A stretch of 51,869 nucleotides of DNA from a virus, in the IMG/VR virus record IMGVR_UViG_3300044961_000057, positions 1 through 51,869 of that record. One strand, given 5' to 3'. The notes under the pieces are model-generated. The model did no database searches. It saw nothing but the letters and a program-made list of their open reading frames with translations, and was not told the DNA's origin. Below, piece by piece: positions 12,138 through 14,973 of the stretch; position 1 is the stretch's first letter, and every line of letters begins with the position of its first letter. A program made the position numbers and the translations under genes.

Positions 12138-12326
12138 TCAGGCTCGCGCCCGAAACTTGTTGCGCTCTCGCTCGGTGAGCTTGAGCGCTTGAATCAGATC
12201 CGCGCCCGTGTGCTCGTAGATCCGACAACGGGGCGAGTGCCACGAAGCGATCCAGCAACCGAGCCAGCGAAGCGCGTTGAGCATGTCGAGAGTAATAGTT
12301 AGTTTTCGATCGGGCGTCAAGCTCAA
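12138..12326 (-). CDS. Small hypothetical protein (TTG start)
   Basis: A 62-aa protein (LTPDRKLTITLDMLNALRWL near its start) with a helical, basic C-terminus. The first candidate codon, TTG 12326, overlaps the helicase stop as TTGA, matching the coupling used elsewhere in the operon. The ribosome site is weak, so expression probably depends on re-initiation after the helicase. No family is recognised. Confidence 0.55.
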   Translation of the reverse strand: MSLTPDRKLTITLDMLNALRWLGCWIASWHSPRCRIYEHTGADLIQALKLTERERNKFRARA

Positions 12327-14338
12327 TCGTCAAGATCCCACGTTTTCGAAGCGAAGTTCAGACGTTGCGGCGTGCTCGTCGTCGTCTCGGCGTAGCGGGC
12401 TTGAGCTTCGGCTTGAGCAATGTCGCTCACGAGTTCGGCGTGATAGCGGTAGAACTCGGCCGAAACCTCGTCGGCGGGTTGCCCTTCGCGGTGCGTGCGG
12501 CCGAGAAGTTGTTCAGTCGTCTTGCCGTTCGACGGCGGGTGAACAATCAGGTTTCGCGAGAAAGCATATTGAAGGTTCTTGCCTTCGCCGTGCGCCTTGA
12601 TCGACGCGAAGATCGAGCGGTCGCCTTTCTCGAGAATGATCGTCGCGCTCGCTTCTTTGCCCCCAGGGAAGAAACCGAAGTTGAGTTTTTGTTCGCGCGC
12701 GATTTGTCGGGCTCGAGTCATGAACTCGTCGTGTTCGAACCAAACGATTCCCGGTTGAGTCTTCGCCCATTCGATCGAATCACGCACGAGCCAATCAGAG
12801 ATCCAAACGGCCTCGGTCTCGGGTTGGACGGTCTTGTGAACGGCCTTCCACGCGAGCCAGTGTTGAGCGGCGAACACGGGAAGCGGCCCGTTGCGTGTTC
12901 CTGGCGGGAAGAACTTTCGTTCACCGTTCACGTCGGCGTGATAGCCCTCGAACCAACGAATCGCGGCGCGCGTCACGTTGCCCGGTGAATCGTAGTTTTC
13001 GCGCGGGTATTGAAGCTCGGCGCGGATCTCGGCGCGCCATGCCTTGCGCAGCTTGAGCCAGGTCTTGATCTGATCGACGGTCTCGCCTCGAGGGTAGCGC
13101 CAACGGTAGAAGAATCCCGACGCGACCTGACGCACGCAACGCGCGATCTCGAGCACCTCGATCAATTCTTCGCCGTCGGGTCGTTGCTTCAACTCACGAA
13201 CGAAGTTCACACACTTCGAGATCAGATTTGCTCTCGAGCCGTTCTCGAGCCACGTCACGAACTCGGGCGCGAGCTTCGGCACGCTCTCGGCGTCGACGGC
13301 GGCCGGAATCATGACACGGCGTTCCGAGAGCACGAGCGAGCACTTCAGCGGTGAGTCTTGCGTGACGATCACGCCATGAACCGAGGTGAACCGCCGTTGA
13401 AAGAGCAATCGCGCGCGCTCGGTGTCGTCGGCGTGCTTTCGGATCTCGTCGGTCGCGAACACCGAGAACGCCTCGAGCAACGAGCCAGGGTGTTTCAAAA
13501 ACGGTTGCGTCGAACTCACGGCGTCGAGAGCGGCGGCCCATTCGTCGGTCGTCGGCGGGTGAATCGGGAGCGGTGACCGCTCACGCATCGCGAGCGCGGC
13601 AAGGTGCGCGTAGTCTTTCAGGCTTCGCGTTGTGAGCGTGCCCGAGAGCGCGGCGAAACGGGTGTTCGGGAGCTTCGCGAACGCGCGAAGGAATCGAATC
13701 GTTCGCGCGGCACTCGGATCGCGCAAGTTGTGAGCTTCGTCGGCGATGATCAGATCCACATGAGGGATCCGCGACAAGAGATCGGAATTCTTGAGCGCAG
13801 AAAGCTCGTGATAGGTGACAACGTGAAGCGTCGGGCGGTTCTCGAAGAACTCGCGACCGAGGTTCGCGGCGAGGTTCGGCGTTCGAAAGTGTGCGGACCA
13901 TTGCGGATAGTCGCGCATGAGGAATTGCGGCTTGAGCGAGGGCGGGATCAGCAACACGGCCGTTCGCACGCCTGGGATCGCCATAGCGAGCAAAATATCA
14001 ATACCCGTCTTGCCGTCGCCAACACCGATCGAGGCGAGCAAGCCTCGAGCGTCGCTCGCTTCCTCGAGAGCCCACCCTTGCACGGGGCGCAGATCGGTAA
14101 TGCATCGGCCCCAACGAGCGACGCAATCACACGGCGTCGTGCGTTCGCGCCGAAGGTGTTTTGTCCAAAGCTCGGCGGCGAGAGGGTCGCGAACGTTGAG
14201 TTCGCGCGCCTCGAGCGCGGCGATCCGCGTGAGGTCTTCGCTCGGCCCGACGGGTTGCCCCTGGCGAAAGCGCGCAACGGGTCGACCGTCGCCTTTGGAC
14301 GCGGCGAGATCAAAAGCCAGATTCGGATCGAACTTCAC
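12323..14338 (-). CDS. SNF2-like superfamily 2 helicase
   Basis: A 671-aa protein with the superfamily 2 motifs in order: Walker A GVGDGKT (105-111), DEAH box IIADEAHN (D200-H203), SGT motif III (~235), and late motifs KAHGEGKNLQY (~605) and LLGRTHREGQ (~635, motif VI with the arginine finger). The layout is that of SNF2-type phage helicases, which remodel forks or protein-DNA complexes. Three cysteines at 70-79 (CDCVARWGRC) may bind a metal. GTG 14338 forms GTGA with the upstream zinc-finger gene. Length is normal for the family. Confidence 0.85.
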   Translation of the reverse strand: MKFDPNLAFDLAASKGDGRPVARFRQGQPVGPSEDLTRIAALEARELNVRDPLAAELWTKHLRRERTTPCDCVARWGRCITDLRPVQGWALEEASDARGLLASIGVGDGKTGIDILLAMAIPGVRTAVLLIPPSLKPQFLMRDYPQWSAHFRTPNLAANLGREFFENRPTLHVVTYHELSALKNSDLLSRIPHVDLIIADEAHNLRDPSAARTIRFLRAFAKLPNTRFAALSGTLTTRSLKDYAHLAALAMRERSPLPIHPPTTDEWAAALDAVSSTQPFLKHPGSLLEAFSVFATDEIRKHADDTERARLLFQRRFTSVHGVIVTQDSPLKCSLVLSERRVMIPAAVDAESVPKLAPEFVTWLENGSRANLISKCVNFVRELKQRPDGEELIEVLEIARCVRQVASGFFYRWRYPRGETVDQIKTWLKLRKAWRAEIRAELQYPRENYDSPGNVTRAAIRWFEGYHADVNGERKFFPPGTRNGPLPVFAAQHWLAWKAVHKTVQPETEAVWISDWLVRDSIEWAKTQPGIVWFEHDEFMTRARQIAREQKLNFGFFPGGKEASATIILEKGDRSIFASIKAHGEGKNLQYAFSRNLIVHPPSNGKTTEQLLGRTHREGQPADEVSAEFYRYHAELVSDIAQAEAQARYAETTTSTPQRLNFASKTWDLDD

Positions 14339-14580
14339 GAGCCCCTCTCGAGCTTCTCAAGGTCGAAGTGTTTCGACCAACCAACGAAACCGCACGATTC
14401 ACAACGATACTCGCGCGCTTGCGACGACATGCGCGCGTTTCGATTCGCGCGCACCTCACGCTTGCCCCCGGTGAGCTTGACGTGAAAACGCGAGCCCTCG
14501 GGCCAACGTGCGCCGCTTCGACGGCACCTCGAACAACGGAAGTTGATCGGGCACCCGGTGCCCGCGTTCGTTCCCGGCAT
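14335..14580 (-). CDS. Small zinc-finger protein, start abuts a tRNA
   Basis: An 81-aa basic protein with two CxxC knuckles (FRCSRCRR at ~14-21 and YRCESCGF at ~57-64), probably one zinc ribbon split by a basic loop. ATG 14580 is the very next base after the discriminator of the tRNA at 14581-14668. Processing of that tRNA would leave an mRNA beginning with AUG, so the gene may be translated leaderless. It overlaps the helicase gene by GTGA. DNA or RNA binding is inferred. Confidence 0.7.
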   Translation of the reverse strand: MPGTNAGTGCPINFRCSRCRRSGARWPEGSRFHVKLTGGKREVRANRNARMSSQAREYRCESCGFVGWSKHFDLEKLERGS

Positions 14581-14668
14581 TGTCGACGGAAGGGATTCGA
14601 ACCCTTCAAGCTCTCTCGAGCAACCGAGGGTGCGACCCTCGTGCGGTTTCCAGTTACGCCACGTCGAC
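14581..14668 (-). tRNA. Class II tRNA with anticodon CGC (unusual)
   Basis: An 88-nt cloverleaf: acceptor GTCGACG/CGTCGAC, D-stem GCG/CGC with A14, GG and A21-type bases in the loop, anticodon stem CGAGG/CCTCG with loop GTCGCAC (anticodon CGC, Ala GCG codons), long variable arm with stem GCTC/GAGC, and T-arm GAAGGG-TTCGAAT-CCCTTC. The long variable arm and discriminator A are Leu/Tyr-type features; G3:U70 for alanine is absent (C3:G70). Acceptor plus T-stem is 13 bp, not 12, and G32-C38 can pair. CCA is not encoded. Aminoacylation identity is uncertain. Confidence 0.75.
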
Positions 14669-14673
14669 GAAAA

Positions 14674-14698
14674 CCGCGCGGGCTCGCGACCCGCGCGG
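14674..14698 (-). terminator. Strong GC hairpin directly 5' of the class II tRNA
   Basis: A perfect 9-bp stem CCGCGCGGG/CCCGCGCGG with a 7-nt loop, followed on the minus transcript by GTTTTC that runs into the tRNA 5' end. It has intrinsic-terminator form and would end the transcript from the gene at 14704-14973. Alternatively it serves as a processing or pausing element ahead of the tRNA. Confidence 0.65.
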
Positions 14699-14703
14699 GT
14701 GCT

Positions 14704-14973
14704 TCACCGCGAAATGTAGCCTTCGGCCTCGAGCATGTCGAAGAGCGACATTCGCTCGAGCCGAGCGTTCGCACGCTTCGCGGCCTTCTCGGCGTGCTCG
14801 CGCATTTCGCGCTCGAGACGAACGCGCCCGTCTTCGCTCACGTTCGCCTGACCTCGGATCGTGAACGTGTACCACGGGGCGGGCTCATGAAACCGAGACG
14901 AGACCGGCGCGCCGTTGAGCCGAGCCCGCTTGCGCTTTTGGTAGCGCGTCGTGATCTTCGCGGCCTCGCTCAC
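14704..14973 (-). CDS. Small basic hypothetical protein
   Basis: An 89-aa protein. A basic N-terminus (ITTRYQKRKRARLNGAPVSS) precedes a strand (PWYTFTIRGQANV) and a long charged helix (RLEREMREHAEKAAKRANAR). GTG 14973 forms GTGA with the 43-aa gene upstream. No family is recognised. The terminator-like hairpin that follows makes it the last gene before the tRNA. Confidence 0.6.
   Translation of the reverse strand: MSEAAKITTRYQKRKRARLNGAPVSSRFHEPAPWYTFTIRGQANVSEDGRVRLEREMREHAEKAAKRANARLERMSLFDMLEAEGYISR

Follow-up and report, generated by a model that had tools for sequence, protein, structure and literature searches.

In mitochondrial genomes, tRNA genes serve as punctuation: a tRNA lies directly before an open reading frame (ORF), and its excision leaves an mRNA that starts at or near the start codon. 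The locus described here has this geometry in a phage, with a tRNA gene that touches the start codon of a small protein gene. RNase Z cuts precursor tRNAs lacking an encoded CCA after the discriminator base, so that such a cut at this locus would yield an RNA whose 5′ end is exactly AUG.

Leaderless mRNAs and their translation are common in actinobacteria (PMC4633059), a group that may or may not include the host of this phage. Maps of RNA 5′ ends in these bacteria also show where tRNA 3′ ends are cut. Most of the 12 CCA-encoding tRNAs in S. coelicolor are cut between the two Cs (PMC4681348), as are examples of CCA-encoding tRNAs in P. acnes (PMC3848588). Cleavage between the Cs would leave a 5′ AUG wherever the discriminator is followed by one C and the start codon (N73-C-AUG). 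No report of tRNA processing generating leaderless phage mRNAs was found in the open literature searched.

A tRNA gene flush with a start codon

The window, by which we mean the whole stretch of DNA analysed, is IMGVR_UViG_3300044961_000057, a linear virus record of 51.9 kb (51,869 nucleotides) that belongs to a contractile-tailed phage. Its right side carries terminase, portal, sheath, tape measure, and baseplate genes, and its left side encodes DNA polymerase, primase, helicase, nucleases, and nucleotide enzymes. On the minus strand, an 89-aa gene is followed by a hairpin with TTTT, the tRNA, an 81-aa gene, and a helicase gene (Table 1).

Table 1. Features around the tRNA–gene junction, with positions in the window.
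Feature	Positions	Strand	Remarks
DEAD/SNF2-like helicase gene, downstream	12323–14338	−	GTG start overlaps stop of 81-aa gene
Gene for 81-aa protein MPGTNAGTG..., two CxxC pairs (zinc-ribbon-like)	14335–14580	−	Start codon ATG 14578–14580
Junction: discriminator A, then A of ATG	14580–14581	−	Offset 0; from sequence
Type II tRNA gene, 88 nt, no encoded CCA	14581–14668	−	Discriminator A 14581; ARAGORN and Rfam RF00005
Anticodon CGC in 7-nt loop GTCGCAC	14632–14634	−	Reads GCG (Ala)
GC-rich hairpin, 10 bp, then TTTT; terminator-like	14674–14698	−	Between 89-aa gene and tRNA
89-aa gene, upstream	14704–14973	−	Stop 123 nt before ATG 14580
Weak sigma-70-like promoter match TCGACA-17-TACATT	14713–14741	−	Inside 3′ end of 89-aa gene

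The original prediction placed the tRNA 3′ end directly against a start codon, and with the tRNA delimited by ARAGORN and Rfam this contact is exact. The two genes share a strand at offset 0, tRNA punctuation being recognized by a common strand and zero or near-zero spacing. That ATG 14580 and no other codon is the true start is also borne out by comparison: in 11 of 17 relatives the N-terminal motif MPGTNAGTG, or one that differs little from it, begins at M1 itself. No in-frame ATG, GTG, or TTG occurs between the upstream stop (14706–14704) and this codon.

The 81-aa gene has no Shine-Dalgarno site. Its predicted energy is −0.3 kcal/mol; for 48 genes of the same phage the median is −5.6 kcal/mol. 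The usual position of the site is occupied by the 3′ strand of the tRNA. An absent Shine-Dalgarno site and a start codon fixed by conservation, the marks sought in a leaderless gene, are thus both found here. The stop of the 89-aa gene lies too far upstream (Table 1) for stop-start coupling.

These features can be joined into one mechanism. The tRNA and the 81-aa gene would be co-transcribed, and a host RNase Z or equivalent endonuclease would cut the CCA-less precursor after the discriminator, releasing the tRNA and leaving the A of AUG 14580 as the 5′ end of the downstream RNA. Given a host able to translate such messages, the 81-aa protein would then be made from a leaderless mRNA, a mode of initiation that would replace the Shine-Dalgarno or stop-start-coupled initiation of its relatives and make expression of the gene dependent on tRNA maturation.

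The 81-aa protein and its relatives

Searches of viral contigs returned six loci with relatives of the 81-aa protein and then 20, the two sets overlapping, and the family alignment comprises 18 members, the window and 17 relatives. Both CxxC pairs are invariant in this alignment. The Pfam family Zn_ribbon_8 scores 13.4 bits on the 81-aa protein, against a cut-off of 34.4, and the predicted structural model has a pLDDT of 78; fold and PDB searches with the protein gave no confident relative. The family with the MPGTNAGTG motif and two CxxC pairs, found in about 20 viral contigs (L002–L028), is uncharacterized, with no PHROG or Pfam match above cut-off. A tblastn search of named phages with the 81-aa protein gave no match, and the sole match of a genome scan is fragmentary and lies in Haloarcula.

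Most relatives have a start codon that overlaps the stop of the preceding gene or lies shortly after it. A Shine-Dalgarno site of −4 to −14 kcal/mol is present in most, three of the 20 being weaker than −4. A tRNA beside the 81-aa gene is absent from every relative found. Searches by protein, alignment, helicase, primase, and a pattern running from T arm to MPGTNA yielded no other junction between a tRNA and an 81-aa gene. The sequence of the closest relative (L008, with a primase 79% identical) ends before the junction site, and no closer relative that spans the junction was found. The 81-aa family does not conserve the arrangement of tRNA and gene; conservation of this kind is seen in Streptomyces phages, where another pair of genes is involved.

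An unusual tRNA

The tRNA scores 35.5 bits with RF00005, for which the gathering score is 29, and a fast Rfam scan of the whole window missed it. Its cloverleaf is intact in the acceptor, D, anticodon, and T arms, with a perfect acceptor stem (GTCGACG/CGTCGAC) and a perfect T arm; an intact cloverleaf and a covariance score above threshold are what is expected of a functional tRNA. The identity of the molecule is less uniform. ARAGORN labels it Ala(CGC), and its body is Leu-like when compared with phage tRNA-Leu, with the D arm TGGCGTAACTGGAAACCGC, a long variable arm, and A73. Alanyl-tRNA synthetase needs G3-U70, and a tRNA-Ala would also have a class I body; this tRNA has C3-G70 and the long variable arm. 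Of the traits of a tRNA-Leu, it has the class II body, A73, and the D arm, but its CGC anticodon is not one for Leu. An allo-tRNA or selenocysteine tRNA was considered and dropped, as the D stem has 3 bp, the anticodon is not UCA, and the acceptor stem has 7 bp.

Two further traits set the tRNA apart. In its anticodon loop, G32-C38 and U33-A37 can pair, and minimum free energy folding predicts a 7-bp stem closed by a 3-nt loop; a G32-C38 pair occurs in one of 300 other viral tRNAs, that of contig L150 described below. One extra base sits between the T stem and the acceptor stem, which would form a 13-bp stack if it is paired.

A tRNA of this kind may be degenerate or repurposed and kept mainly as a processing signal, not as an adaptor, a reading that refines the proposal of a processed leaderless mRNA and is compatible with it. 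The combination of a Leu-like D arm and long variable arm with a CGC anticodon speaks for it, as do C3-G70 in place of G3-U70 and an anticodon loop that can be closed. So does codon usage: GCG is the main Ala codon of the phage (482 of 866 Ala codons), so inserting Leu there would be harmful. The same combination recurs in an unrelated phage contig, L150, where a Leu-like tRNA with a CGC anticodon and G32-C38 (positions 307–386) is again followed by C and the ATG of an ORF. Against this reading stand the perfect acceptor stem and T arm, the intact fold, a score that is low yet above threshold, and the poor RF00005 score of the L150 element. A pattern search of viral contigs found no Leu-like CGC tRNAs beyond these two, and the two cases suggest retention of such tRNAs as processing signals. 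For the tRNA of the window we hold this to be possible, leaning somewhat against it.

What brought the L150 contig into the sample was a neighbouring tRNA-like element with ATA behind it. This mini element (245–300) has no D arm and consists of an acceptor stem (GTCTCGG/CCGAGGC), one arm, and a T arm. A gap of 6 nt separates it from the Leu-like CGC tRNA downstream, and Rfam scores it as mascRNA-like, below threshold.

Flush junctions in other phages

An ATG that opens an ORF flush behind a tRNA is roughly a 1–3% event per tRNA, so one case alone could be coincidence. Under dense gene packing, the junction could have arisen by chance, with the 81-aa gene translated weakly and without a Shine-Dalgarno site from an uncut transcript and processing playing no part. 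A flush case per roughly 50–100 tRNAs occurs anyway, and in a first sample one of 168 tRNAs was flush with an ATG whose ORF spans 40 codons or more. The lack of a tRNA in all relatives of the 81-aa gene and the Shine-Dalgarno energies above −4 kcal/mol in three of the 20 likewise fit a chance origin.

When no ORF was required, ATG and ATA followed the discriminator about equally often (13 and 15 cases), with no excess of ATG, in contigs that had been picked by that very pattern and in which most ATGs open no ORF. The test was repeated with ORFs of at least 40 codons, after removal of ORFs running into the next tRNA and of pattern-selected tRNAs. Among 380 CCA-less tRNAs of viral contigs, which had been fetched by a pattern with ATG or ATA behind another tRNA, ATG-ORFs numbered 12 at offsets 0–2 against 4 at offsets 3–8. 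An independent set comprised 19 named tRNA-rich phages chosen with the junction disregarded (484 tRNAs, 158 of them without CCA) and dominated by Jay2Jay; here the corresponding numbers were 6 and 2. Permuted triplets (GAT, GTA, AGT) at offsets 0–2 gave 0.33 in each set. Relative to the rate at offsets 3–8, the Poisson probability is 1e-6 in viral contigs and 6e-4 in named phages; tRNAs are treated as independent here, which makes both values look stronger than they are.

At offset +1, the named phages have 11 ORF starts (6 ATG and 5 GTG or TTG), against 0.0 for the permuted ATG triplets. Each of the 11 reads N73-C-start codon, and every one lies in an actinophage (Jay2Jay, A3Wally, or Francesca). 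Among the other named phages, 47 tRNAs lack CCA, and none of these has a start at offsets 0–2. In Jay2Jay (L268, L269), 8 of 41 tRNAs have a start codon with an ORF within 0–2 nt, an unusually high share. Across the samples, flush starts are in excess over neighbouring offsets and permuted triplets.

Such junctions are also annotated by depositors, whose coding sequences start right after the tRNA in Francesca (78189/78190), Jay2Jay (106458/106459), and A3Wally (100819/100820). Matches to the region of tRNA-Leu and gene 212 of Jay2Jay occur in 83 Streptomyces phage records. In seven of these, with most pairs of genes only 55–79% identical, the junction always reads TAC|ATG or TAC|GTG, and the gene 212 protein is conserved from its first residue. 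The position of the junction is kept while the sequences of these phages diverge.

Both the excess of flush starts in two samples and the conserved junction of the Streptomyces phages argue against coincidence. So does the tRNA fold of −39 kcal/mol, which ends one base before the AUG and should hinder binding of the 30S subunit to uncut RNA. We regard coincidence as unlikely, while giving it real weight.

Origin of the proposed 5′ end

Leaderless mRNAs are usually promoter-derived (PMC4681348), and transcription from a promoter within the tRNA, or shortly before it, could begin directly at the ATG and give a leaderless or short-leader transcript. The bases 7–12 before 14580 (CTTCCG) contain no −10-like hexamer, and the sole promoter match is weak and lies 130 bases upstream, with one sigma-70-like match found against 0.3 expected. 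This origin is very improbable. Still less probable is a tRNA that betrays a phage attachment site or a scar left by integration: tRNA ends at attP are common among temperate phages, but the window has a whole tRNA, and no integrase is present among its 26 main genes scanned (terminase, portal, sheath, DNA polymerase, primase, nucleases).

The segment from 14674 to 14741 holds the weak promoter match and the strong terminator-like hairpin ahead of the tRNA, whose transcription would have to pass the hairpin. Shuffled sequences yield terminator-like sites at least as often as the region does. From the TGA of the 89-aa gene (14704–14706), the frame stays open for 41 codons, crossing the hairpin and the tRNA before it enters the 81-aa gene, a length not unusual given the base composition.

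The original prediction had further proposed that tRNA processing creates a leaderless message and ties expression of the gene to tRNA maturation. The start codon, the missing Shine-Dalgarno site, the excess of flush starts, and conservation in Streptomyces phages support it; co-transcription, the cut, leaderless initiation, and the coupling to maturation are steps that we infer. A leaderless mRNA made by tRNA processing is the best explanation given the junction data, the published cuts, and the commonness of leaderless translation, and on balance it is the probable source of the 81-aa message. Confidence is tempered because the gene's own family lacks the tRNA and because the additional base that separates the T and acceptor stems might shift the cut. 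The terminator-like hairpin just upstream of the tRNA also counts against a leaderless message, and the junction of the window is at offset 0, in contrast to the conserved actinophage junctions, which are at +1 after a C.

More broadly, many phages, and above all actinophages, may use tRNAs as punctuation, with genes placed where 3′ processing exposes the AUG and, in some cases such as the window and L150, with odd tRNAs of discordant body and anticodon perhaps serving only that end; we consider this a possibility that falls a little short of being probable. If it holds, bacterial viruses would independently use the logic of mitochondrial tRNA punctuation, and their dense tRNA clusters would double as mRNA processing sites. 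Leaderless mRNAs that bear a 5′ monophosphate would then exist as a class, and something besides decoding would account for the retention of some phage tRNAs. Gene starts right after tRNAs would be real, though they may be overlooked by gene finders built to expect a Shine-Dalgarno site.

Comparison with known systems

The window tRNA resembles bacterial tRNA-Leu in its D arm, long variable arm, and A73, and tRNA-Ala(CGC) in its anticodon. It differs from both in the mismatch between body and anticodon, in the loop that G32-C38 can close, and in having one more base where the T stem meets the acceptor stem.

The nearest counterparts of the junction are Jay2Jay genes 211/212 with their relatives, A3Wally (a Microbacterium phage), and Francesca (a Rhodococcus phage), in which a coding sequence likewise begins at the very next base after an annotated tRNA end. 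Their tRNA and protein families differ from those of the window, and one C separates discriminator and start codon in the Streptomyces, A3Wally, and Francesca pairs. The records and literature examined state no mechanism for these pairs.

Actinobacterial leaderless mRNAs (PMC4633059; PMC4681348; PMC3848588) share with the 81-aa gene the lack of a Shine-Dalgarno site and the start codon proposed to lie at the 5′ end. Their 5′ ends are transcription starts that bear a triphosphate, whereas the end in the window would be made by processing and bear a monophosphate. Mitochondrial punctuation, for its part, is a genome-wide scheme, whereas the window offers a single junction in a phage, served by bacterial enzymes and ribosomes, at which cleavage is presumed. 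By analogy, the locus may be likened to mitochondrial punctuation in its geometry and to actinobacterial leaderless translation in its start, as a candidate for kinship with both and an established member of neither.
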